Positions 2,725 through 42,800 of a stretch of DNA of 64,000 nucleotides are shown one piece after another. The notes beneath the pieces are model-generated. The model did not search any database, was not told the DNA's origin, and saw nothing but the letters and a program-made list of their open reading frames with translations. This DNA comes from Desulfarculaceae bacterium (GTDB lineage: Bacteria; Desulfobacterota; Desulfarculia; Desulfarculales; Desulfarculaceae), in assembly GCA_020444545.1 (NCBI GenBank), contig JAHLKT010000005.1, positions 124,001 through 188,000 on the forward strand, in the 5' to 3' direction. A program made the position numbers and the translations under genes. The first letter of the stretch is position 1. Every line of letters starts with the position of its first letter.

Positions 2725-5412
2725 CTAGAGCTTCTCCAGCTTGACGGCGCAGGCCTTGTACTCGGCGGTCTGGGAGACCGGGTCGTAGACCCCGTTGGTC
2801 AGCCAGTTGGCGCAGGCCTCGCGGAAGTGGAAGGCCATCCACACCATGCCTTCCTGCACCTCGGGGGTCACCTTGGCGGTGAGCTCGATGGAGCCGCGCC
2901 GCGAGGAGAGCCGCACCCGCTCGCCGTTGGCGATGCCCAGCTTTTTGGCGTCGGCCAGGGAGATGTCGGCCGTCTCCTCGCCCAAAAGCTCGTTGAGCCC
3001 GCCGCTGCGCCCGGTCTGGGTGCGGGTGTGATAGTGGTAGAGCCTACGCCCGGTGCTGAGCACCAGGGGGTACTCCTCGTCCGGCACCTCGGCCGGCGGG
3101 GTCCACTCGGCGGGCTTGAAGTTGCCCAGCCCGCAGGTGAAGCAGCCGTCCTTGTGCAGGAACGGGGTGCCCAGGTGATCCAGGTCGGGCACCGGCCACT
3201 GCAAGCCGTCTCCCTCGATGCGGCTGAACTTGATGCCGGTCATGGACGGGGCCAGCATGGATACCTCGTTGTCCCAGATCTCCTGGCCGCTGTTCGACTC
3301 CCACTCCTGGCCCATGCGCTTGGCGATCTCCTTGAAGATCCACCAGTTGGGCTTGGCATCCCCGGGAGCCTCCACCGCCTTGCGCACCCGGTTCACCCGG
3401 CGCTCGCTGTTGGTGAAGGTGCCGTCGTCCTCGCTCCAGGCCGTGGCCGGCAAGACCACGTCCGCGAAGCGGGTGGTTTCGGTATGGAAGATGTCGTTGC
3501 ACACGATGAACTCGGCGTGCTCCATGCAGTGCTCCACATGGGTGATGTCCGGTTCGGTGTTGGCCACGTTCTCGCCGAAGATGTACATGCCCTTGACCTT
3601 GCCGTCGCCCAGGCCGTCGAACATGGCCGGCATCATCATGCCCAGCTTGTCGTCCAATTCCACGCCCCAGGCCTTCTCGAACTTGGCCTTGGCGTCGGGG
3701 TCGGTGACCTTCTGGTAGCCGGGGTACACGTTGGGCAGCGCGCCCATGTCGCAGGCCCCCTGCACGTTGTTCTGGCCGCGCAGCGGGTTCACGCCGCCGC
3801 ACTCGAAGCCCACGTTGCCCAGAAGCATCTGGAAGTTGGCGCAGGACATCACGTTGTTCACGCCGCAGGTGTGCTCGGTGATGCCCAAGGTGTACATGAG
3901 CATGGCCGGCTTGTTGGCGGCCATCAGGCGGGCCACCTCCACGATGGTCTCCGCCGGGATGCCGCTGATCTCCTCCGCCCGCTCGGGCGGGTAGTTCTCC
4001 ACCGCGGCCTTGAGCTCCTCGAAGCCCACGGTGCAGCTCTTCACGTATTCCTTGTCGTAGAGGTCCTCTTTGATGAGCACGTGCATCAGCCCGTTCAACA
4101 GGGCGATGTCGCTGCCCACCTTGAGGGGCAGGTGCATGGTGGCAAACTCCGCCAGCGCGGTGCGCCGGGGGTCCACCAGGATCATCTTGGCCCCGTTGTT
4201 TACCGCGTTCTTCACGAACGTGGCCGCCACGGGGTGGGCCTCGGTCATGTTGGAGCCGATGATGAAGAACATCTTGGCCTTGTCAAAGTCGGCAAAGCTG
4301 TTGGTCATGGCCCCGGAGCCGAAAGAAGTCGCCAGACCGGCGACAGTGGGAGCGTGTCAGGTTCGTGCGCAGTGATCGATGTTGTTCGTACCGATCACCG
4401 CGCGGAAGAGTTTCTGCATGTTATAGGAGTCTTCGTTGGTGCTGCGCGCGCAGCTGACCCCGGCGATGGAGTCGGGACCGTGCTCCTTCTTTATCTCCAT
4501 GAAGCGCTCGGCCACCAGGTCCAGGGCCTCGTCCCAGCTCGCCTCGCGGAACTCGCCGTTCTCCTTGATCAGCGGCGTGGTCAGGCGCTCGGGGCTGTGG
4601 ATGAAGTCGTAGCCGAAGCGGCCCTTCACGCACAAACGGCCCCGGTTGGGCTGAGCGTCCTCCACGGCAGTGACCTTGATGATCTGGTTGTCCTTCACGT
4701 GCAGCCAGAGCTGGCAGCCCACCCCGCAGTAGGGGCAGGTGGTGCGCACCTTCTTGGTCTCCCAGGAGCGGCCCTTGCCCTTGGCCTTCTTCTCGGTGAG
4801 CGCCCCCACCGGACAGGCCTGCACGCACTGGCCGCAGTGGGTGCAGTTTTCGTAGTCCACCAGGGGGAACCAGCCCTTGTCCGGCTCCTGGTCCTGGCGC
4901 GGGCCCCAGGGGGCGGGGATGGCCAGGTTGACCTGCACCTCGTTGCAGGCCTGCACGCAGCGGCCACAGAGGATGCACTTGGAGAAGTCCCGGGTGATCA
5001 CCGGGTAGTCATCGTCCAGGGGGAACTCCGCCTTGGCGGGCAGGGTCGCCGGGGCCTCCAGGCCGTACTCATAGGCCAGGGCTTGCAGCTTGCACTCGCC
5101 GTTGGCCTCGCAGAGCAGGCAGTTGTGCTCGCCGCTGGCCAGGAGCATCTCCAGGATGGCCTTGCGCGCCTCGGTGACGCGGGGGCTGTCGGTGATCACC
5201 TCCATGCCCTCGCCGGCCGGGGTGTCGCAGGAGGGCAGCAGCCGGTCGGCCCCGACCACCTCCACCACGCACATGCGGCACACCCCCGTCGGGGTGGCCT
5301 CGGCCAGGTAGCACAGGGTGGGTATCTTGATGCCGTTGGCCTGGGCCGCTTGCAGGACGCTTTGGCCCGGCTCAAAGGCTACGCTTTGTCCGTTTATTTT
5401 CATCTGAGCCAT
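2725..5412 (-). CDS. fdhA: Selenocysteine-containing formate dehydrogenase alpha subunit
   Basis: Cytoplasmic molybdenum/tungsten bis-pterin enzyme interconverting formate and CO2. It is one reading frame of 895 residues interrupted by a single in-frame TGA at 4357-4359, read as Sec352 in the family motif CARTUHAPTVAGLATSFGSG, the position of the metal-binding Sec of formate dehydrogenases. A SECIS-like hairpin follows immediately. Domains in order: [2Fe-2S] ferredoxin domain (~1-80; CYLAEATPTGVCRMC), His/Cys [4Fe-4S] segment (~95-125), two ferredoxin clusters (CILCGRCVQAC, CTHCGQCVQACP), the CX2CX3C cluster domain (CPYCGVGC), then the pterin-binding body. The start at 5410-5412 has an AGGAG site and lies 4 bp after the preceding gene's stop. 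It has no Tat signal, so it should act in the cytoplasm with the Hdr proteins or the NuoF/GltD-like partner. Confidence 0.96.
4328..4359 (-). promoter_or_regulatory. Selenocysteine UGA and bacterial SECIS element of fdhA
   Basis: Sec codon UGA at 4357-4359 followed by C. Twelve bases further, on the minus strand, a 6-bp stem GUCGCC/GGCGAC (4328-4344) closes the loop GGUCU, starting about 18 nt after the UGA. The loop sequence and spacing closely resemble the SelB-binding hairpin of E. coli fdhF. Confidence 0.92.
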
Positions 5413-5416
5413 GATG

Positions 5417-7354
5417 CTAACTCCTCGTTGCGGCCGGGGCCACGGCGGCCACGGCCAGACGGTAGCAGCGCAGGCAGCGCTCGGCCTCCTTGCGGGCCTC
5501 GGCTTTGCTCGTGCCGCCCTCCACCTCGGCGAAGCTTTGCACGCGCTCACCGGGGTCCATGGTGGGGAGCTCCAGGCGCTCCCCTCGGCCGGGGAAGGCG
5601 AAGGTCTCGCTGGGGTCGTAGACTCCCAGGCCCTCCACCAACTTCTCCAAGAGGTGGCGCTCGCTCAGGGCGCAGGAGCCTGATTCCAGCTGCTGGGAGA
5701 TGAAGCGGGCGGCCTTCTTGCCCGCGGCCAGGGCCCCGATCAGGGTGCTGGGCCCGGTCACGCAGTCGCCGCCGCCGAACAGGCTCGCGTCCTTGCTCTG
5801 GAAGGTCGCCTCGTCCACCACCAGGGTCTTCCAGTCGGTGACGTGCCTGGCGTCGGGCAAGACACAATCCACCACGCAGATCTGGCCCACCGCCGGGATG
5901 ATGGCGTCGCACTCGATGACGAACTCCGAGCCCTTCACCGGCACGGGCCGCCGGCGTCCCGAGGCGTCGGGCTCGCCCAGTTCCATTTTCAGGCACTCCA
6001 GGCCGCTCACCTTGCCGTTCTCGGCCAAGACCTTGGTGGGCGCGATGAGGTAGTGGAACTCCACGCCCTCTTCCTTAGCCTCTTTGATCTCCACCGGATC
6101 GGCGGGCATCTCCGCCTCGGTGCGGCGGTAGAGCAGGTGCACCGTGTCGAAGCCCAGGCGGCGGCCGGTGCGCACGCAGTCCATGGCCACGTTGCCCCCG
6201 CCGATGACCAGCATCTTCTTGCCCTCCAGGGGTTTCTGGCCGCGCGAGGCCTTGGCCAAAAACTCCACGCCGGTCATGAAGCACTGGTGCCCGGCGTCCT
6301 CGCCCTCGCAGCGCATGGAGCCCGCCTCGGGCGCGCCCACGCCGATGAACACGGCCTGGTAGCCATCCTTGCCCAGCTCCTCCAGGGTGATGTCCTCGCC
6401 CACGCGCACCCCGTAGCGGATCTCCGAGCCCATGCGCTCCACCTGGGAGGCCTCGAAGCCGATCACCGAGCGGGGCAGGCGGTAGGTGGGAATGCCGAAA
6501 GCGGCCATGCCGCCCGGGGCTTCCTGGGCCTCGAAGATGGTGCTCTTGTAGCCCAGCTGGCCCAGGTAGTAGGCGCAGGAAAGGCCCGCCGGCCCGGCGC
6601 CCACCACCGCGATTTTGGCCTGTTTGTGCGCGGCCGGAGCCTCCGGCGGAGCGATGGCTCCGGCCATCTCCTCGTCGGCCAAGAAGCGCTTGAGCGAGCG
6701 AATGGCCAGAGGTTCGTCCAGGCGGGAGCGGCGGCAGTTGGCCTCGCAGGGGCGCACACACACCCGGCCGATGGTGCCGGGCATGGGGCAGTCGCGCCGC
6801 ACGGCGGCCATGGCCTTGTCCAGGTTGCCCAGGCGGATGCCCTCGATGTAGGCCGGCACGTCCACGTGGGAGGGGCAGGCGTTTATGCAGGGCGCGGTGA
6901 CCAGGGTCTCGTACTGGCCCCGCTCCACCGGCTCCCCGGCCGCGATGGCCGCCTCGAAGGCGTCGCGCCGGGCGGCCAGCAGGTCGGCCAGGGGCTTGGC
7001 CAGGGTGCGGCCGATGTCGCAGCGGGCGGTGTCGCTGATCTGGGCGGAGAGGGTCTCCAGGGTGGCTAGGTCGGTGGGCAGGCCCTGGCCGGCGCAGATG
7101 CGGCCCATGGCCTCGGCCAGGCGCTGGGTGCCCAGGCGGCAGGGGAAGCACTGGCCGCAGGACATGTCCCGGGCCAATTCAACATAGGCTCGCGCCAGAT
7201 CCACCGGGTTCACCGAGGGGTCTATCACCTCAACGCCCTCCGAGCCCATCACGGCCCGGATGGCGCCTTGGGCGGCCGCTTTTTCCAGCGCCGCCGCGGC
7301 CAGAGCCTCCCGGTGGGGAGGCCGCCGCCAAGTGTGTAATTCGGTATCAGACAT
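5417..7354 (-). CDS. NuoF-C-terminal/GltD-like NAD(P)H flavin oxidoreductase
   Basis: A 645-aa electron-transfer flavoprotein, probably passing electrons between NAD(P)H and the adjacent formate dehydrogenase. The N-terminal ~130 residues resemble the C-terminal FeS domain of NuoF (SCGQCFPCRLGT with a later Cys in DTARCDIG). Then comes the GltD-type FeS segment (CINACPSHVDVPAYI, CVRPCEANCRR) and the FAD/NAD module with two Rossmann motifs (VVGAGPAGLSCAYYL, VIGGGNVAMDCVRTG) and the closing GGGDCVTGPSTLIGALAAGK. The C-terminus carries a further Cys pair (RCLRCYR). It directly precedes fdhA with a 4-bp gap. The NuoF flavin and NADH-binding domain itself is missing, so the GltD part must handle the nucleotide. 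Confidence 0.88.
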   Translation of the reverse strand: MSDTELHTWRRPPHREALAAAALEKAAAQGAIRAVMGSEGVEVIDPSVNPVDLARAYVELARDMSCGQCFPCRLGTQRLAEAMGRICAGQGLPTDLATLETLSAQISDTARCDIGRTLAKPLADLLAARRDAFEAAIAAGEPVERGQYETLVTAPCINACPSHVDVPAYIEGIRLGNLDKAMAAVRRDCPMPGTIGRVCVRPCEANCRRSRLDEPLAIRSLKRFLADEEMAGAIAPPEAPAAHKQAKIAVVGAGPAGLSCAYYLGQLGYKSTIFEAQEAPGGMAAFGIPTYRLPRSVIGFEASQVERMGSEIRYGVRVGEDITLEELGKDGYQAVFIGVGAPEAGSMRCEGEDAGHQCFMTGVEFLAKASRGQKPLEGKKMLVIGGGNVAMDCVRTGRRLGFDTVHLLYRRTEAEMPADPVEIKEAKEEGVEFHYLIAPTKVLAENGKVSGLECLKMELGEPDASGRRRPVPVKGSEFVIECDAIIPAVGQICVVDCVLPDARHVTDWKTLVVDEATFQSKDASLFGGGDCVTGPSTLIGALAAGKKAARFISQQLESGSCALSERHLLEKLVEGLGVYDPSETFAFPGRGERLELPTMDPGERVQSFAEVEGGTSKAEARKEAERCLRCYRLAVAAVAPAATRS

Positions 7355-33468: not shown

Positions 33469-35283
33469 TTGCGTCCACGCCTGACCAGCCTGCGTCAGCG
33501 CCTGCTGATTTTCCTGCTCCTGCCCGTGGCCCTGCTCTTGGTGGGCCTGGGCGGGTTCGGCTTTTACTATGCCCGCCAAAGCCTTTTGGACTCCTGGCGT
33601 GAGTCGGCCATGCTCAGCCTGGAGCGGGCGGCCCACGCCATCGACATGCGCCTGGCCCAGCCCGAGGACGCGGTGGAGCTGATCAACAGCCTTTCCAGCC
33701 AGGCCCCCACCAACCCCCAGGAATGGGAAACCCAGCTGGCCAAGCTGCCCGGAGTGGACCGGGTACGCATGGAGCTGACCGGCCTGGAGCCTCCCGCCGC
33801 CCTGGGCCCGGAGGGCTCGCCCTTGCCCCGGCGGGGCAGGGGCCAGGCCATGGGCCAAGGCATGGACGGGGCTGGCCAGGGCATGGGCTATGGCATGGGC
33901 CCCATGCGCTTCCACCGGGTGGAGGTGGCCAAGGTGACCAGCCCCCGCCTGGACACCACCTCGGGCCGCGAGACGGTGACCATGGTCTTCGACCTGGTGA
34001 GCGAGGACAAGAAGCCCATGGCCCGCCTGGAGATCGTGGTGCGCTTCGCCCACCTGCTGGAGGACCTCAATGCCCTCAACTGGTGGCGGAGCGACAACGT
34101 GTATCTGGTGGACCGCACCGGACGGGTGCTGGCCCGGGGAGCCGAGGCGGTGCCCCTGGGGGGCAGCCTGGGTAGCGGGGGCGATGCCTTCCGCCTGGAT
34201 GTGCTGTCAGCCCTGCTGACCCACAACAAGGGCACGGTGATGAGCGGGGGCCACCCGGCCAAGGAAGTGGCCGGTTTTTACCGCCTGAGCCGGGCGCCAT
34301 GGACCCTGGTGCTCATCGCGCGGGGCGAGGCGGTGCTGGGGCCGGTCACCGACTTTCTCAGGGCCTTTGCCCTGGCCTCCCTGGTGTGCATCGGCCTGGT
34401 GCTTCTCATCATCTTCACGGTCACCGGCCGGGTGGCCGGTTCGGTGCGCCAGGTGTGCCAGGCCGCGGTGCAGGTGGCCCAGGGCAACTACCAGCGGGTG
34501 CCCACCCCCCACAGCCGCGACGAGTTCTTCCGCCTGGCCCGCCACTTCAACACCATGGTGGCCGGGCTCAAGGAAAAGGACCACATCCGAGACACCTTTG
34601 GCCGCTACGTGGACCCCGGGGTGGCCCGCAGGCTCATGAGCCGGCCCGAGGCAACCAACCTGGGCGGCGAGAAGCGCCAGGTGGCCATCATGATGACCGA
34701 CGTGCGCGGCTACACCGCCCTGTGCGAAACGCTCAGCCCGGAAGAGACCATCGCGGTGATCAACCGCTACCTCTCGCGCATCATCGAGGTGATCCAGCGC
34801 CACGAGGGCATCATCGTGGACTTTTTGGGCGATGCGGTGCTGGCCTTTTTCGACAGCCTGGAGGACGGCATCGAAGTGGCGGTGCAGCGCGCGGTGTGCT
34901 GCGCCCTGGAGCTGCAAGAGGCCACGGCCGAGTTCAACCGCGAGGCGGCTGAGCAGGGCCGCACCCAGCTGGAGACCGGCATCGGGCTCAACGCCGGCGA
35001 GGTGGTGGTGGGCAACATAGGCTCGGCCAAGCGCACCAAGTACGGCATCGTGGGCGGGCCGGTCAACCTGACCCAGCGCATCCAGTCCACGGCCGAGGGC
35101 GGCGAGATCGTCATCTCACAGGAGGTGTGCGACCGGCTGCCTTCCGAGGTCCAGGTGGGGCGCAGCTTCAAGGTGAAGCCCAAAGGCCTGGAGCGCGAGA
35201 TCGCACTTTTCGTGCTCACCGGCTCCGCCTCCTGCGGGGTGCTCCAGCCCGAGCCCCTGGCCTCGCCCCCTGTTAACAATTAA
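33469..35283 (+). CDS. Membrane class III nucleotide cyclase with periplasmic sensor
   Basis: A 604-aa protein: TM1 (~11-31), periplasmic sensor region (~32-295), TM2 (~300-325), HAMP, and a class III cyclase domain (~385-580). Metal-binding Asp residues are in MMTDVRGYTAL and FLGDAVLAFF; the Asn/Arg pair is in VNLTQRI. The usual adenine-selecting Lys before GD appears to be Asp (VDFLGD), so cAMP specificity is not certain. The periplasmic part contains a Met/Gly-rich stretch (GQGMDGAGQGMGYGMGPM, ~128-145). The start is TTG at 33469 with GGAGGAG upstream. The signal made may be read by the cNMP-binding protein at 52388. Confidence 0.88.
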   Translation: MRPRLTSLRQRLLIFLLLPVALLLVGLGGFGFYYARQSLLDSWRESAMLSLERAAHAIDMRLAQPEDAVELINSLSSQAPTNPQEWETQLAKLPGVDRVRMELTGLEPPAALGPEGSPLPRRGRGQAMGQGMDGAGQGMGYGMGPMRFHRVEVAKVTSPRLDTTSGRETVTMVFDLVSEDKKPMARLEIVVRFAHLLEDLNALNWWRSDNVYLVDRTGRVLARGAEAVPLGGSLGSGGDAFRLDVLSALLTHNKGTVMSGGHPAKEVAGFYRLSRAPWTLVLIARGEAVLGPVTDFLRAFALASLVCIGLVLLIIFTVTGRVAGSVRQVCQAAVQVAQGNYQRVPTPHSRDEFFRLARHFNTMVAGLKEKDHIRDTFGRYVDPGVARRLMSRPEATNLGGEKRQVAIMMTDVRGYTALCETLSPEETIAVINRYLSRIIEVIQRHEGIIVDFLGDAVLAFFDSLEDGIEVAVQRAVCCALELQEATAEFNREAAEQGRTQLETGIGLNAGEVVVGNIGSAKRTKYGIVGGPVNLTQRIQSTAEGGEIVISQEVCDRLPSEVQVGRSFKVKPKGLEREIALFVLTGSASCGVLQPEPLASPPVNN

Positions 35284-35817: not shown

Positions 35818-36150
35818 ATGTTGAAACGAATTTTGGTGATGCTGTTGGTCCTGAGCTTCCTCGGCGCCGGCCTGGGCGTGGCCCTGGCCTCCGGTGGCAA
35901 GGGCAACTCCCGCAAGGGCAAGTACCTCTACCGCAAAAACTGCCGCGTCTGTCACGTGGAAAACGGCAAGGCCAAGGAGCTGAGCCCCATCAGCAAGACC
36001 CAGGCCCAGTGGAAGACCACCTTTGCCGACGCCAAAAAGCTGCCCTGCGCGGCCGAATGGGCCAAGCTATCGGACAAGGACATCACCGACATCTACGCCT
36101 ACCTCTGGGGTCACGCCAAGGATTCGCCTTCCCCGGCCAAATGCAAGTAG
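35818..36150 (+). CDS. Small periplasmic monohaem cytochrome c
   Basis: A 110-aa exported protein: signal peptide ~1-24 (MLKRILVMLLVLSFLGAGLG then VALASGG) and a single haem site CRVCH (C42-H46). Met candidates for the sixth ligand are not obvious in the short mature chain; the C-terminal helix DITDIYAYLWGHAKD is typical of class I cytochromes. A GGAGAG site supports the ATG at 35818. It is the first gene after the sigma-54 promoter and probably exchanges electrons with the molybdoenzyme complex encoded downstream, from which it is separated by a strong hairpin. Confidence 0.9.
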   Translation: MLKRILVMLLVLSFLGAGLGVALASGGKGNSRKGKYLYRKNCRVCHVENGKAKELSPISKTQAQWKTTFADAKKLPCAAEWAKLSDKDITDIYAYLWGHAKDSPSPAKCK

Positions 36151-36225: not shown

Positions 36226-38424
36226 ATGGCTAAATCCTCTCGCCCCGCCCTGTCCCGGCGCGGCTTCCTAAAGCTGGCCGGCGCGGCCGGCGCGGCCGCC
36301 GCCCTGGGCGGCACGGCGCTGCCGGCGGCCAAGCCTGCCCAGGCCGCCGGCGGCATCCGCCCCGGCTTCGAGAGCAAGTTCACCGTGTGCGACATGTGCT
36401 TCAACAAGTGCAGCGCCATCGCGCGGGTGCAGGATGGGGTGGTCCACAAGTTGGACCCCAATCCCAAATTCCTGAAGTCGCGCGGCATGCTCTGCGCCCG
36501 GGGCAACGCCGGGGTGGAGCAGGTCTACGGCCGCGACCGCCTCAAGTACCCCCTGCTCAGGGTGGGCGAGCGCGGCGAAGGCAAGTTCAAGCGCATCTCC
36601 TGGGACGAGGCCCTGGACATCGCGGCCGAGAAGATGAAGGCCATCGGCGACCGCTACACCCGCTGCGGCTTCATGTTCATGGCCGGCAGCGACATGCAGT
36701 CCACCTTCGTGCACCGCTTCGCCGAGGCCTACGGCTCCTACAACATGCTCAGCCACGAGTCCATGTGCCTCATCGCGGGCACCCGGGCCTTTTTGGACAC
36801 CTTCGGCGAGGTGCCCATCCCGGACATGCTCTACGCCAAGTACGTGGTCATGGTGGGGGCCAACCGTTTCGAGTCCCTGGTCACCCCGGACAGCATCGAC
36901 CTGATGAGCGCCATGAAAAACGGGGCCAAGCTGGTGGTGCTGGACCCGCGCTACACCAAGAGCGCGGCCAAGGCCGACGAGTGGTTCCCCATCAAGCCCC
37001 GCACGGACATGGCCTTCATGCTGGCCCTGGCCCACGTGCTCATCAAAGAGAAGCTCTACGATAAGAAGTTCGTGGCCGAAAAGACCTACGGCATCGAGCA
37101 GCTGAGCAAGCACGTGGAGCCCTACACCCCGGAGTGGGCCGCGGCCCAGTGCGACATCCCGGCCAAGGACATCGCCCGCATCGCCCGCGAGCTGGCCAAG
37201 GCGGCCCCGGCGGCCATGGTCTATCCCGGCCGCCGCTCCTCCAACTACACCGACTCCACCCAGATCCGGCGCTCCTACGCCATCGTCAACGCCCTGCTGG
37301 GCAACTGGGACCGCCCCGGCGGCCTCACCGCCGCCCGCAAGGTGGGCCTGGCCGGGGGCGTGCCCTTTGAGGCGCCCTTCTACGAGAACAACCCCGAGGA
37401 CCGCATCGACGCGGGCAAGGCCACGCTGATGTTCCCCGAGGAGGGCTCCTTCAAGCTGGCCCGCGACGCGGTGATCGCCGGCAAGCCCTACCCGGTCAAG
37501 GGTTGGTTCACTTATCACACCAATCCCATGCAGACCGCGGCCAACCGGCAAAAGACCGTGGAGATGATCAACCAGTTGGATTTCATGATCTCCATGGACA
37601 TCCATATGAGCGACACCGCCTGGATGGCCGATTTGGTGCTGCCTTCCCAGACCTATCTGGAGCGCCAAGACCCCTGCTCGGCCCAGCAGGGCTCCAGCGC
37701 CTGCGCCTGCGTGGTCATGCGCGATCCGGTGGTGGCCCCGCTCTACGAGTCCAAGCCGGTGTTCTGGGTCATGCAGCAGATCGCCAAGCGAATCGGCCTG
37801 GGCGAGCACTTTGATTTCACCATCGAGCAGTTCCGCGACAAGCAGCTGGCCGAGCTGCCCGGGGCCATGGACGCCCTCAAGCGCGACGGGGTCTACTACA
37901 ACCCCTCCAAGCTCTACGGGGTCTACGAGGGCAAGATCTACAAGACCAAGTCGCACAAGATCGAGCTGTACAACAGCCGCTACGCCGAGATGGGCCTGGA
38001 CCCCATGCCGGTCTACACCCCGCCCAAGCCGGGAGGCCACGACCGCTTCCGCATGGTGGTGGGGCGCAACGCGGTGATCACCCAGTCCTCCAGCCAGAAC
38101 AACTCCCTGCTGGTCAAGTTCCAGCCCACCAACCACCTGTGGATTCACCCGGACCCGGCCAAGGAGATGGGCATCACCAACGGCGAGTGGGTGTGGGTAA
38201 AGGGACCCCACGGCAAGCAGCGGATTCAGGCCAAGGTGACCCACCAGACCCGGCCGGACACGGTGTACATGGCCACCGGCTTCGGGGTGCTGAGCAAGGA
38301 CCTGCAAAATATTTACGGCGAAGGGGCCTGCATCGCCGAGGTGTTGAACGACGACTTCGACACGATCAGCGGGAACATGGCCATGCATGAGACCTGGGTC
38401 CGCGTGGGCCGGGAGGCGGCATGA
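36226..38424 (+). CDS. Phs/Psr-type molybdopterin oxidoreductase, catalytic subunit
   Basis: A 732-aa Tat-exported bis-pterin enzyme. Tat signal SRRGFLKLAG at residues 10-19, mature start near residue 41. The N-terminal [4Fe-4S] site is CDMCFNKC (55-62) plus Cys90 in GMLCARG. Cys181 in LSHESMCLIAG is the likely Mo/W ligand. The body shows the pterin-domain segments typical of thiosulfate and polysulfide reductases. The next two genes encode the FeS and cytochrome b subunits, completing a PhsABC/PsrABC-like complex, and rhodanese genes follow. The substrate is therefore probably thiosulfate, polysulfide or sulfur, though other oxyanions or formate cannot be excluded. Confidence 0.9.
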   Translation: MAKSSRPALSRRGFLKLAGAAGAAAALGGTALPAAKPAQAAGGIRPGFESKFTVCDMCFNKCSAIARVQDGVVHKLDPNPKFLKSRGMLCARGNAGVEQVYGRDRLKYPLLRVGERGEGKFKRISWDEALDIAAEKMKAIGDRYTRCGFMFMAGSDMQSTFVHRFAEAYGSYNMLSHESMCLIAGTRAFLDTFGEVPIPDMLYAKYVVMVGANRFESLVTPDSIDLMSAMKNGAKLVVLDPRYTKSAAKADEWFPIKPRTDMAFMLALAHVLIKEKLYDKKFVAEKTYGIEQLSKHVEPYTPEWAAAQCDIPAKDIARIARELAKAAPAAMVYPGRRSSNYTDSTQIRRSYAIVNALLGNWDRPGGLTAARKVGLAGGVPFEAPFYENNPEDRIDAGKATLMFPEEGSFKLARDAVIAGKPYPVKGWFTYHTNPMQTAANRQKTVEMINQLDFMISMDIHMSDTAWMADLVLPSQTYLERQDPCSAQQGSSACACVVMRDPVVAPLYESKPVFWVMQQIAKRIGLGEHFDFTIEQFRDKQLAELPGAMDALKRDGVYYNPSKLYGVYEGKIYKTKSHKIELYNSRYAEMGLDPMPVYTPPKPGGHDRFRMVVGRNAVITQSSSQNNSLLVKFQPTNHLWIHPDPAKEMGITNGEWVWVKGPHGKQRIQAKVTHQTRPDTVYMATGFGVLSKDLQNIYGEGACIAEVLNDDFDTISGNMAMHETWVRVGREAA

Positions 38425-39176
38425 TGGCAAAGCAACTGGGCATGGTGATCGACGCCGACTCCTGCATCGACTGCAAGGGCTGCATGGCCGCCTGCAAGGT
38501 GGCCAACGAGGTGCCGGGAGACAACTGGCGCAACTGGATCAAGGACGGCGAGATGGACTGGAACGCCAAGGGCAAGAGGCGCATGGTGTTCCAGCCGGGC
38601 AACTGCATGCAGTGCGACAAACCCACCTGCGTAACCGCCTGTCCCACCGGGGCCACCTACAAGAGCAAGGCGGACGGGGTGGTGTTGATCGACCGCGGCC
38701 TGTGCATCGGCTGCGGCCAGTGCATCAAGGCCTGCCCCTACGGGGCCCGCTACCGCAACGACAAGCTCAAGGTGGCCGACAAGTGCGACTTCTGCCGCAG
38801 CCGCCGCGAGGTGGGCCTGGAGCCGGCCTGCGTTAGCACCTGTCCCACCAAGGCGCGGGCCTTCGGCGACCTCAACGATCCCGCCTCGCCGGCGGGCAAG
38901 CTCTACGCCGCCCAGAAGGACAAGGCGGTGCAGGTGGTCAACGCCGAGAGCAACACCGATCCCAACATCTACTACCTGGGCGCGCCGGGCAACAAGCACT
39001 GGCCGGTCAAGGCCCAGATGCCCTCGGCTTTCACCTTCTGGAAAAACGTGGCCGATCCCGGGGTCAAGGTGCTCATGGGCCTGATGGGCGTGGGCGTGCT
39101 GGCCATGCTAGGCAAGCAACTGGTCATGAAAAACGACGCTCCCGAGGAGCATCACGGGGAGGACGGCCATGAGTAG
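38421..39176 (+). CDS. Four-cluster FeS subunit with C-terminal membrane anchor
   Basis: A 251-aa electron-transfer subunit of the DmsB/PhsB/FdnH type. Four ferredoxin-like clusters: CIDCKGCMAAC, CMQCDKPTCVTACP, CIGCGQCIKACP and CDFCRSRREVGLEPACVSTCP. A hydrophobic helix near the C-terminus (~219-235) would anchor it, as in FdnH. The start overlaps the molybdoenzyme stop (ATGA); a second ATG directly follows. It has no signal sequence and probably rides out with the Tat-exported catalytic subunit. Confidence 0.93.
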   Translation: MMAKQLGMVIDADSCIDCKGCMAACKVANEVPGDNWRNWIKDGEMDWNAKGKRRMVFQPGNCMQCDKPTCVTACPTGATYKSKADGVVLIDRGLCIGCGQCIKACPYGARYRNDKLKVADKCDFCRSRREVGLEPACVSTCPTKARAFGDLNDPASPAGKLYAAQKDKAVQVVNAESNTDPNIYYLGAPGNKHWPVKAQMPSAFTFWKNVADPGVKVLMGLMGVGVLAMLGKQLVMKNDAPEEHHGEDGHE

Positions 39177-39915
39177 CCGCCAGATCCCCCGCCACACCCG
39201 GGCGGGCATCTTCATTCATTGGTTCAACGCGGCCTGTTGGTTCTTCCTGCTGGCCACCGGCGTGGCCCTCATCTCCAACCCGGAGCTCAACCCCCTGGGC
39301 GCCTGGTATCCCAAGGCGGTGCGCGCGGTGTTCATGGGCGGCGGCAACCTGCTGGTGGCCCACTGGCTGGTGGCCTTCATCTGGCTGGCGGTGTGGGTGG
39401 TCTATCTTTTCTGGGGAATGAACCGCTTCGTGGCCCCGTTCCTCAACTCGGCGTTCACCATCGAGCCCAACCGCGACATCCAGTGGATGATCAAGAAGAA
39501 CCTGCAAATGATGGTGGGCTACAAGATGATGGCCAAGTTGGTCAAGCCCCTGGGCTACGACGGAACCATGCCCGACCAGGGCTACTACAACGTTGGCCAG
39601 AAGCTGGCCGCCCAGGGTCTCATCTTCGGCGCCCTGGCCCTGGTGGGCACCGGCTTCATCATGTTCGCCAGCAAGTACTTCCTCACCGCGGCCGACTCCT
39701 GGCTGGTGCAGTGGTCCATCACCGTGCACTTCATCGCCGCCGGGGTTACCACCGCCCTGTTGATCCTGCACATCTACATGGCCGCCATCAGCAAGGATGA
39801 GCGCCCGGCCTTTATTTCCATGTTCACCGGAACCGTGCCGGCCGAGTATGCCAAGCATCACCACCGGCTCTGGTACGACGAGCTAGAGGATTCCAAACCA
39901 TCGGAGGTAGGATAA
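39169..39915 (+). CDS. Cytochrome b membrane subunit (FdnI/PhsC-like)
   Basis: A 248-aa integral membrane protein with four predicted helices (~14-38, ~62-84, ~145-170, ~185-205), of the di-haem cytochrome b561/formate dehydrogenase gamma family. Candidate haem ligands are His in IFIHWFNA, VAHWLVAF, TVHFIAAG and LILHIYMA. It overlaps the FeS subunit gene by 8 bp. It would link the quinone pool to the periplasmic catalytic subunit. Confidence 0.9.
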   Translation: MSSRQIPRHTRAGIFIHWFNAACWFFLLATGVALISNPELNPLGAWYPKAVRAVFMGGGNLLVAHWLVAFIWLAVWVVYLFWGMNRFVAPFLNSAFTIEPNRDIQWMIKKNLQMMVGYKMMAKLVKPLGYDGTMPDQGYYNVGQKLAAQGLIFGALALVGTGFIMFASKYFLTAADSWLVQWSITVHFIAAGVTTALLILHIYMAAISKDERPAFISMFTGTVPAEYAKHHHRLWYDELEDSKPSEVG

Positions 39916-39917
39916 AC

Positions 39918-41114
39918 ATGAAACGCTTCAGCAAGAGCCTGGCCGTGGCCCTGGTGGCCGTCTTGGCCTTGGCCCTGGCCGCCCCCGCCCTGGCCGCGGA
40001 AAAACCGGCCTTCAAGACTTACCCCAACATCGTCGACGGCGCGTTCGTCAAGGACGTGGCCGACGGCAAGGTCAAGGGCTACATCTTCGACGCCCGCCCC
40101 TTCAAGAAGAAGTACGTCAAGGGGCACATCCCCGGTGCGGTGAACCTGCCCACCACCTACTTCGACCAGAAGAAGAACCTCTTGCCCGCCGACAAGGCGG
40201 CCCTGATCGTGTTCTACTGCGGCGGCCTCAAGTGCGCCCTGAGCCACAAGAACGCCTTCAAGGCCCAGGCCCTGGGCTACAGCAACATCGTGGTCTTCGC
40301 CAAGGGCTACCCCGATTGGAAGAAGGCCTACGGCCCCGGCGTGGTGGGCCCCGATCCCGTGGCCAAGCCCGCCAAGGCCGAGCCCGCCTTCAAGACCTTC
40401 CCGGTCATCGTGGAGGCGGCCTTTGTTAAGGACGTGGTGGACGGCAAGAAGGTGGGCCTGGTCATCGACGCCCGCCCCAAGAAGAAGAAGTATGACAAGG
40501 GCCACATCCCCGGCTCCCTGAGCCTGCCCACCAGCCAGTTCGGCAAGCTCAAGGGCCTGCTGCCCGCCGACAAGAATGCCCTGATCGTGTTCTATTGCGG
40601 CGGCCTCAAGTGCGCCCTGAGCCACAAGGCCGCGTTCAAGGCCCAGGCCATGGGCTACAAGAACATCAAGGTCTACGCCAAGGGCTACCCCGACTGGAAG
40701 AAGGCCTACGGCGCCGGCGCCATGGGCGCGGCCCAGGCCCCGGCCGCCAAGAAGGCGTCCAAGGGCAGCCTGAAGCCGGGCAAGGAAGAGGGCAGCGTGG
40801 ACCTGGCCTTTTTCCAGGAGACCTACCAGAAGAATCCCCAGAGCATCTATCTGGTGGACGTGCGCGACCCCGGCGAGTACAAGGCCGGAGCCATCAAGGG
40901 CTCGGTGAACATCCCGGTGGACAAGCTGGCCAAGAGCATCGACAAGCTGCCCAAGAACAAGCCCGTGGTGTTCGTGTGCGGCACCGGCGCCCGCTCCGGC
41001 GAGGCCTTCTACATGATCAAGGACCTGGCCCCCCAGATGACCGACGTGTACTACATCGACGGCGAGGTCACCTTCAACCCCGACGGCACCTACAAGGCCG
41101 CCCCTCCCAAGTAG
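39918..41114 (+). CDS. Secreted triple-domain rhodanese
   Basis: A 398-aa exported sulfurtransferase-like protein. Signal peptide ~1-26, then three rhodanese domains. Domains 1 and 2 (~28-140 and ~155-265) are close internal duplicates, each with the loop FYCGGLKCALSHK carrying two Cys five residues apart (C101/C106 and C227/C232). Domain 3 (~285-395) has the conventional loop FVCGTGARSGEA with one Cys (C354). A GGAGG site precedes the ATG, 2 bp after the cytochrome b gene. It probably carries sulfane sulfur for the adjacent reductase in the periplasm. The double-Cys loop is directly comparable to the Cys-Sec loop of the next gene. Confidence 0.93.
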   Translation: MKRFSKSLAVALVAVLALALAAPALAAEKPAFKTYPNIVDGAFVKDVADGKVKGYIFDARPFKKKYVKGHIPGAVNLPTTYFDQKKNLLPADKAALIVFYCGGLKCALSHKNAFKAQALGYSNIVVFAKGYPDWKKAYGPGVVGPDPVAKPAKAEPAFKTFPVIVEAAFVKDVVDGKKVGLVIDARPKKKKYDKGHIPGSLSLPTSQFGKLKGLLPADKNALIVFYCGGLKCALSHKAAFKAQAMGYKNIKVYAKGYPDWKKAYGAGAMGAAQAPAAKKASKGSLKPGKEEGSVDLAFFQETYQKNPQSIYLVDVRDPGEYKAGAIKGSVNIPVDKLAKSIDKLPKNKPVVFVCGTGARSGEAFYMIKDLAPQMTDVYYIDGEVTFNPDGTYKAAPPK

Positions 41115-41121
41115 GGACAGC

Positions 41122-42159
41122 GTGCGCCATCGGCTTATATGCTTGAGTAAAGGCCCGGTCCCCCCCGCCGGGGGGCCGGGCTTTGTCTTGGCCGTGGTCC
41201 TGGCGGCGCTGCTGCTGGCGGCTCTGCCCGCTTTGGCGGCCGCGCCCGCCTGGTGGGCCCAGGCCAAGGCCCAGGCCGACCAGTACGGCTACGGCCTGAT
41301 CGACGACGCGGGCCTGGACAAGCTCTTGGCCTCGGACAAGGACTTTTTGCTCCTGGACGTGCGGCCGGACTACGAGTACGCCCAGGGCCACATCAAGGGA
41401 GCCAAGAACCTGGAGTTCCACCTGGGCGACCGCCTAACGCTGGACCCAGCCAAAGCCAAGCGCTTCGAGGCGCTGGCCGGGCCGGACCGTGGCCGCCTGC
41501 TGGTGATCTACTGCCGCTCCTTCCGCTGACTGCGCGGCGGTATCGCCGCCCGCTGGGCCGTGAGCCTGGGCTACAAGAACGTACTGCGCTACGCCGGGGG
41601 ATGGCACGGCTGGCTGGCCCACCAGGGCAAGGCCGCCCAGGAGCTGCCTCCGGCCGGGCTAAAGAAAGGGGACTACTTCCCCTCCTGCCGCCTGGTGCTC
41701 TTGGACAAGGCTTCCGACCGCGCCTACCTGGGCATCAAGCACCAGGAGCCGGCCTTCTCCCTGGAGGACGTGGACGCGGACTATCTTTTCGTGGAGCTCT
41801 ACGACGAGCTATGTTTCGGTTGCCTCAAGGAGGTGGCCTCCTACAACCACCTGTTCATCGAGTTCAACCAGGACCCCCTGCTCAGCAAGCGCATGAAGAT
41901 GCTGGGCCTGGGCGTGGGCAGCCTCAACCGCGAGGTGATGCGCTTTCGCCGCCAGAAGAAGGTGCTCTTCCCCCTGTTCGCCGACCGCCGCCGCGAGGTT
42001 TTCAACTGCCTGGGCAAGCCCGGGCTGCCGGTGGCCTACCTGATCAAGCACACCGGCCCCGGCCGCTGGAAGATACTGGCCATCATGTCCGGGCACATCG
42101 GGGACACCCACGCTTTATTGAAGCGGATCAAGGCGGCCATGGCCACCGGGGCGCCCTAG
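41122..42159 (+). CDS. Predicted selenoprotein: secreted rhodanese-thioredoxin fusion with Sec136
   Basis: One reading frame of 345 residues containing a single in-frame TGA at 41527-41529. The N-terminus has a signal peptide (LAVVLAALLLAALPALAAA). Residues ~40-165 form a rhodanese domain (LLLDVRPDYEYAQGHIKGAKN). Its active loop reads YCRSFRULRGGIAARWAVSL, and aligning it with the neighbouring rhodanese loop FYCGGLKCALSHK places the TGA exactly on the second Cys; the sequence after the TGA continues the alignment (LGYKNVLRYAGGWHGWL against MGYKNIKVYAKGYPDWK). The C-terminal ~170 residues resemble a TlpA-like thioredoxin fold with CFGC (C231, C234). The GTG start 7 bp after the upstream stop is the best option. 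Probable role: periplasmic sulfur/selenenyl-sulfide redox chemistry with the Phs-like complex. Confidence 0.82.
41149..41190 (+). terminator. Strong GC hairpin at the start of the selenoprotein gene
   Basis: AAAGGCCCGG pairs with CCGGGCTTT, with an inner C-run/G-run stem, then TTTGTCTT. It resembles an intrinsic terminator for the triple-rhodanese gene but lies inside the coding start of the next gene, so it may be an attenuator. Confidence 0.55.
41527..41569 (+). promoter_or_regulatory. Sec codon and candidate SECIS hairpins
   Basis: UGA at 41527-41529 is followed by C, as in the fdhA Sec site. Two downstream hairpins could act as SECIS: GCGGCG-type 6-bp stem with loop GUAU (41534-41549, loop 11 nt after UGA, rather close) and a weaker stem with loop CGUGA (41553-41569, loop about 30 nt after UGA). 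Neither is as clear as the fdhA element. Confidence 0.6.
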
Positions 42160-42800
42160 GCGATCCCGCCGGCCTCGGCCTCCACCAGCTCCAGCAAGGC
42201 GATCAAGAGCTTGGCCACCAGGGAATAGACCGCACCGGGGTCGGCCTCTTCCTGCCGCGCGGCGAATTCGCGCACCCAAGGCAGCATGAAACGCCCCGCC
42301 AGCTCGGCCGCCTCGGCCTCGCCGCCCGGGCGCTCGCCGTCCCAGGACTCTTCCAAGAGATAAATGAGGTACTCGAGCTCCACGGCCAGGTGGTCCGGCG
42401 GCTCGCCGGGCTTCTCTTCCAAGGCCAGGCCCTCGGCCTCCAGACGCTGGGCCATGGCCTCGGCGGGCGGGCCCATCACCCGTCCCTCGCCCACGTAGCA
42501 GGAGTGATACAGGGGGGCGGGCACTCCGCCGGGTTTGGACACGAACATGCTAACGTAGCCGGGCTCCAGCTCGGCGCAGAGCTCTTTGGCTTCGGCCCCG
42601 GCCAGGCGGGCGCTCAGCGAGCGCAGGGCAGGGGAGGCGGCGGGAAGCATGGCGGCCAGCTCGCTGATCAACTCGCCTCCTTCGGGCCCGGCCAGGTCTG
42701 CGCAGAGCTCGGCGTCCGGCCCCCAGTAGAGCCGGGCCAGCATCGCCAACCCGTCCAGCACCGCTTCCTGCGCGGGGGTGTAGTCTTCCTGCTCGCTCAT
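42156..42800 (-). CDS. TorD/DmsD-family molybdoenzyme chaperone
   Basis: A 214-aa all-helical cytoplasmic protein resembling the TorD family, which guards cofactor insertion and Tat export of molybdoenzymes. Family-like segments are LARLYWGPD near the N-terminus, the central ELEPGYVSMFVSKPGGVPAPLYHSCYVGEGR and the following DHLAVELEYLIYLLEE. It is convergent with the selenoprotein gene: the two stop codons share the sequence CTAG (4-bp overlap). The likely client is the Tat-exported molybdoenzyme at 36226. Confidence 0.85.
   Translation of the reverse strand: MSEQEDYTPAQEAVLDGLAMLARLYWGPDAELCADLAGPEGGELISELAAMLPAASPALRSLSARLAGAEAKELCAELEPGYVSMFVSKPGGVPAPLYHSCYVGEGRVMGPPAEAMAQRLEAEGLALEEKPGEPPDHLAVELEYLIYLLEESWDGERPGGEAEAAELAGRFMLPWVREFAARQEEADPGAVYSLVAKLLIALLELVEAEAGGIA

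Follow-up and report, generated by a model that had tools for sequence, protein, structure and literature searches.

The polysulfide-sulfur transferase Sud of Wolinella succinogenes, which we take to be an exported rhodanese and the partner of a Psr-type molybdoenzyme, is a sulfur carrier with one domain and one Cys. Rhodaneses that contain selenocysteine (Sec) also have precedent, as the initial annotation of the DNA discussed here had noted: A 2026 review describes five rhodanese selenoprotein forms (PMC13188914). Forms 1-4 have the motifs UxxS, UxxG, CxU and UxxG, and TsoB, with UxxxxU at homologous positions, is included among the five. TsoB, a selenoprotein encoded in the Tso operon in which a rhodanese is fused to DsbD, has two Sec residues spaced as UX4U, a DsbD membrane domain and a thioredoxin.

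The window, which is the whole 64,000-nucleotide stretch of Desulfarculaceae DNA that we analysed, carries an operon that encodes, in this order, a cytochrome c, a PsrA/PhsA-like molybdoenzyme, an Fe-S subunit, a cytochrome b, a triple rhodanese and, last, a predicted selenoprotein in which a rhodanese domain is fused to a redoxin. The genes of the window referred to below are:

2725-5664, - strand: FdhA-type formate dehydrogenase (in-frame TGA at 4357, SECIS loop GGUCU)
35818-36150, + strand: small c-type cytochrome (start set at an internal ATG by inspection)
36226-38424, + strand: PsrA/PhsA-like molybdopterin oxidoreductase with a TAT signal (best PDB match 2vpw, E 6.5e-121)
38421-39176, + strand: 4Fe-4S electron-transfer subunit, PsrB/PhsB/TtrB-like
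39169-39915, + strand: cytochrome b561 / FdhI-type membrane subunit
39918-41114, + strand: exported triple-rhodanese protein with two CGGLKC (CX4C) loops
41122-42159, + strand: selenoprotein of 345 residues (signal peptide, CX4U rhodanese domain, redoxin domain)
42156-42800, - strand: convergent TorD-like chaperone gene, named from position and context and found beside the operon in most relatives

The structure best matched by the molybdoenzyme, 2vpw, was deposited as a thiosulfate reductase and is of the Psr/Phs type. The operon resembles PhsABC, PsrABC and the MOLY cluster (PMC12998232) in its Psr/Phs catalytic subunit, its Fe-S and membrane subunits and its TorD-like chaperone, and differs from them in the cytochrome b561-type anchor, the added cytochrome c and the rhodaneses. 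A gene for a HAMP-adenylate/guanylate cyclase lies just 5' of it (33469-35283, + strand) and occupies the same place in several relatives of the same genus.

The operon is present in two classes of Desulfobacterota, and the initial assignment to a Phs-like operon extends across these lineages: A PsrA/PhsA-like gene adjoins the selenoprotein gene or its Cys form in the orthologue loci read, save where contig ends truncate the locus. In the host's family, the layout is retained as far as contigs extend, except in G011, where no triple-rhodanese gene stands between the genes for cytochrome b and the Sec rhodanese-redoxin protein (L064, 8417-8568); the two rhodanese genes are thus separable. The layout is likewise retained in almost every one of the 20 other-class loci examined, including those where the rhodanese stands without a redoxin. 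The exceptions are G714 and G473, which are truncated by contig ends, and G473 and G478, which have a multi-rhodanese gene elsewhere in the locus. Four of these 20 loci (G464, G470, G504 and G443) showed no TorD-like gene.

The reading frame of the selenoprotein gene begins with a GTG at 41122, 8 bases past the stop codon of the triple-rhodanese gene, and continues through 135 codons, the TGA at 41527-41529 and 209 further codons to a TAG at 42157-42159. The frame and the position of the TGA are those originally reported. The stretch after the TGA is open, as was also reported; its length was given as 210 codons and is 209 residues plus the stop. The parts of the gene, all on the + strand, are:

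41122-41247: predicted N-terminal export signal, with the hydrophobic core FVLAVVLAALLLAAL and the end ALAAAP
41320-41619: rhodanese domain, Pfam PF00581 (residues 67-166, E 9e-18)
41512-41514: Cys131, the standard rhodanese catalytic Cys
41527-41529: TGA, read as Sec136
41543-41563: candidate SECIS hairpin, TCGC C GCCC-GCT-GGGC C GTGA
41661-42156: redoxin domain, AhpC-TSA/ResA-like (residues 180-345, start approximate)
41686-41688: Cys189, in 44 of 54 fused homologues
41812-41823: CX2C motif, Cys231/Cys234, in 49 of 54 fused homologues
42007-42009: Cys296, in 37 of 54 fused homologues

The signal peptide had been proposed before, and hydropathy agrees with it, so the product is presumably exported to the periplasm.

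A first search seemed to confine the family to Desulfarculaceae-type genomes, a view that was overturned by searching the class of the outlier G268. In that class, 57 of 348 genomes gave a match, and reading of the loci brought the total to 67 homologues, those of the host's family included. Fifty-four of them are rhodanese-redoxin fusions (43 with Sec, 11 with Cys) and 13 consist of the rhodanese without a redoxin (11 with Sec, two with Cys).

These homologues bear directly on how the TGA is read. Across all 67, column 136 holds Sec (TGA) in 54, Cys in 13 and nothing else. Ten of the orthologues come from the host's family, and the same codon is TGA in four and TGC in six of them; the Sec-form proteins other than that of the window are 84, 64 and 51% identical to it. 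The other class adds 39 fused homologues with TGA and five with Cys at this column. A tree of the homologue rows needs seven changes between Sec and Cys, five of them forced by well-supported branches, and Sec and Cys forms are likewise interleaved in the operon tree of the host's family. The initial annotation had placed the TGA on a conserved Cys column and had named Cys-containing homologues, conservation on both sides and the presence of sel genes as checks; the counts above bear out the first of these.

The coding potential on either side is also preserved. In the orthologues of the host's family, conservation runs unbroken through the TGA up to the last residues. At the local base composition, 209 codons would stay open by chance in only about 1% of cases, and the comparison of homologues carries much more weight than this figure. 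Compared with the nearest relative, G001, Ka/Ks before the TGA is 0.18 for the mature part and 0.24 with the signal peptide included, and it is 0.26 after the TGA. Judged by these ratios, purifying selection is acting on either side of the TGA, and both halves are protein-like, as had been claimed.

The host genome has the machinery for Sec: Searches returned selA (610 bits), selB (398 bits), selD (379 bits) and tRNA-Sec (73 bits). A SelB match turned up in every one of 11 genomes, namely the host's and those of ten relatives, carriers of the Cys form among them; one match, a fragment at a contig end, fell below the cutoff. The host selD (G000:C1:335187-336113, + strand) has one in-frame TGA of its own, and SelD itself is probably Sec-containing. 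Within the window, the FdhA gene, which had been called a Sec gene from the start, combines its TGA with a textbook SECIS loop and serves as a positive control for Sec decoding.

The TGA could alternatively be a true stop, or an artefact of sequencing or decay, in which case the gene would be two pieces or a pseudogene. The lack of statistical support for a SECIS element fits such a reading. However, the identical codon is TGA in 54 genomes and Cys in the remaining 13, the sequence 3' of the TGA is under purifying selection and the Sec machinery is complete, and we consider a stop or artefact extremely improbable; the two-gene and pseudogene versions were discarded on the Sec/Cys column of the 67 homologues. 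Because this column holds only Sec or Cys, exchanges between them are forced on the tree, selection acts on both sides, and selA, selB, selD and tRNA-Sec are present, the TGA at 41527-41529 is almost certainly decoded as Sec.

A SECIS hairpin in the rhodanese-redoxin gene is plausible, without statistical support. Each of the four Sec copies in the host's family has a candidate hairpin whose loop, 23-25 nt past the TGA, contains G. A single-sequence fold of the candidate gives z = -0.05, and it is no stronger than synonymous-codon shuffles. The hairpin is found in the Cys copies too, with no Sec-specific constraint at synonymous sites. Consensus folding of the homologues gives no clear support. 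The stem register varies between lineages, and the other class has a different one, with only some of the pairing preserved. A dip in Ks just 3' of the TGA (0.13 vs 0.49 before it) was considered as a sign of a SECIS and set aside, being non-significant and also seen in Cys pairs. In contrast, a second Sec rhodanese of the host genome has a strictly preserved GCCGCC-AGGUU-GGCGG hairpin in 10 of 11 genomes, with one variant in L095.

The TGA falls within the rhodanese domain, in the loop Y-C131-RSFR-U136-LRS. The window protein, a predicted sulfurtransferase, scores 65 bits with the PF00581 profile against a gathering score of 22.2. When it is aligned by profile with rhodaneses of solved structure, Cys131 coincides with their catalytic Cys, and the loop that holds Sec136 exceeds theirs by two residues. 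Cys131, which the initial annotation had identified as the standard rhodanese Cys five residues before the Sec, is invariant in all 67 homologues. The rhodanese-like selenoproteins of forms 1-4 (PMC13188914) likewise have a PF00581 domain, and their Sec lies within the active loop or close to it.

The best NCBIfam match of the window protein is TsoB (NF045694), to the rhodanese domain only and with 90.5 bits against a cutoff of 805. The rhodanese domains of the two are homologous over residues 25-167 (E 6.6e-26). Both proteins have a redox pair spaced by four residues in the loop, Sec at the same second position of that pair and a fused thiol-reducing module. Membership in TsoB was nonetheless rejected: The score is below the cutoff, DsbD is missing and the motif is CX4U instead of UxxxxU. 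Unlike TsoB, the window protein has a soluble redoxin and belongs to a Psr/Phs operon. The rhodanese_LYCAU family (NF041203, CxU) was rejected as well, with 24.6 bits against a cutoff of 115 and the motif CX4U. In NCBIfam 20.0, neither the window protein nor an other-class homologue reaches the cutoff of any family, and the rhodanese forms of PMC13188914 include neither the CX4U motif nor the rhodanese-redoxin fusion, in line with the earlier impression that the fusion is undescribed. What is new is the CX4U motif, the redoxin fusion and the operon; seleno-rhodaneses as such were already known. Five related genomes (G002, G013, G015, G016 and G021) encode TsoB proteins that have UX4U, DsbD and thioredoxin, and in the set of 22 genomes none of the ten carrying the rhodanese-redoxin gene has TsoB above cutoff. 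Ten and five of 22 without overlap have a chance of about 3% assuming independent genomes, which they are not, so that replacement of one selenoprotein by the other is no more than hinted at.

The C-terminal domain of the window protein matches PF00578 with 23.3 bits, slightly below the cutoff of 26, and ResA structures in the PDB with E of about 1e-6. It resembles the thiol-disulfide oxidoreductases ResA and TlpA in its CX2C motif and a residue matching the cis-Pro; in contrast to them, it is fused to a Sec rhodanese and has two extra conserved Cys (Cys189 and Cys296), which are absent from the stand-alone redoxins of the same genomes. No link of the redoxin to cytochrome c maturation was seen. 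An AlphaFold2 model built from the sequences of the window protein and one relative reached pLDDT 45 and pTM 0.35, and no claim about the fold rests on it.

The thioredoxin-like fusion with CX2C had been recognized initially, and from it a self-contained sulfur-transfer and reduction enzyme had been proposed. The proposal fails as a general rule. Besides the 13 homologues without a redoxin, five fused homologues of one genus (G683, G686, G689, G690 and G691) have lost CX2C and kept Sec; the family as a whole can therefore not depend on internal reduction. Sec is retained in 16 of these 18. From this comparison, the constant element of the family is the C131/Sec136 pair in the rhodanese loop, and the redoxin is accessory, common but not universal. 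In the CX2C-less loci (L134, L136, L153, L155 and L156, genus g304), R..S or H..N replaces CX2C and CX4U is intact. In the rhodanese-only homologues L157 (G457) and L140 (G443), two in-frame TGA codons were counted, one of them in the CX4U loop.

These variants weigh on whether the protein might instead do thiol/disulfide or peroxide housekeeping, maintaining the Cys-rich periplasmic rhodaneses and the reductase from outside the sulfur flow. Such a role would suit a redoxin of the AhpC/TSA-ResA superfamily, and the two additional Cys, found mainly in fused members, would suit it too. Yet it is the rhodanese loop, not the redoxin, that forms the conserved core, and members without CX2C or without the redoxin remain in the same operon; we therefore regard housekeeping as quite improbable.

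We put at an even chance the proposal that the protein is an exported selenoprotein that resolves and reduces a cysteine persulfide, activating and channelling sulfane sulfur for the adjacent molybdoenzyme. Cys131 would accept sulfane sulfur as a persulfide, from polysulfide, thiosulfate or a persulfide of the neighbouring triple rhodanese. Sec136 would then attack the Cys131 persulfide, with sulfide being released or the sulfur handed on, and leave a Cys131-Sec136 selenenyl-sulfide, which the CX2C of the fused redoxin could reduce. Where a working redoxin is absent, another thiol reductase of the periplasm might take over this step; the host genome has a gene for a DsbD-like protein at another locus (C1:573681). 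The net effect would be that sulfane sulfur is activated and channelled to the adjacent molybdoenzyme.

The protein could also be a carrier in the manner of Sud, delivering persulfide-bound sulfane sulfur unreduced to the PsrA/PhsA-like enzyme. Sec136 would then tune the transfer or protect the loop from over-oxidation, and the redoxin would merely reset the loop. The Psr/Phs layout of the operon, the profile match to Wolinella Sud (PDB 1qxn, E 2e-5) and the relatives that dispense with the redoxin all accord with this role. However, a single Cys would presumably suffice for a carrier, as in Sud, and a redox step is suggested by the second, strictly redox-active loop residue together with the thiol reductase that most members, and TsoB, carry as a fusion. 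The window protein differs from Sud in its CX4U pair, its redoxin and its place in the same transcription unit as the molybdoenzyme. The four-residue spacing recurs in the triple rhodanese (CX4C), in stand-alone rhodaneses, in the second Sec family of the genome (CX4U) and in TsoB (UX4U). This recurrence leads us to favour a redox step over plain sulfur carriage, as does the fact that the rhodanese-redoxin family and TsoB have distinct thiol-reducing modules fused to them, and a Sud-like carrier appears somewhat unlikely.

It is possible, and we suggest it tentatively, that CX4U and UX4U rhodaneses with a fused thiol reductant (here the redoxin and, for TsoB, DsbD) make up a separate class of Sec-dependent periplasmic persulfide reductases. 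If so, Sec would resolve the persulfide of the loop cysteine and thereby couple thiol reducing power to sulfur respiration of the Psr/Phs type.

That the gene and its sulfur-respiration operon recur in dozens of related bacteria suggests an undescribed family of selenium enzymes beside a polysulfide/thiosulfate reductase. Gene callers will split this selenoprotein in two in dozens of genomes. The family would tie selenium to dissimilatory sulfur metabolism beyond the classical Sec enzymes. Bacterial changes from Sec to Cys are described as rare, with FdhA and SelD as the main documented cases (PMC13188914). Here, near relatives, all of them Sec-decoding where checked, hold the Sec or the Cys form in the same operon, which makes a clean natural experiment on the advantage of Sec over Cys. 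The rhodanese-only, CX2C-less and fused versions similarly offer natural material for dissecting the role of each part.

The second CX4U selenoprotein of the host (G000:C7:231471-232838, - strand; L084:9472-10839, - strand) has a CxxCH heme-type motif and three rhodanese domains, and NCBIfam gives no family above cutoff for it. Its loop is YCQGFRU, and its TGA is present in all 11 genomes with a match, which span the order and the class.
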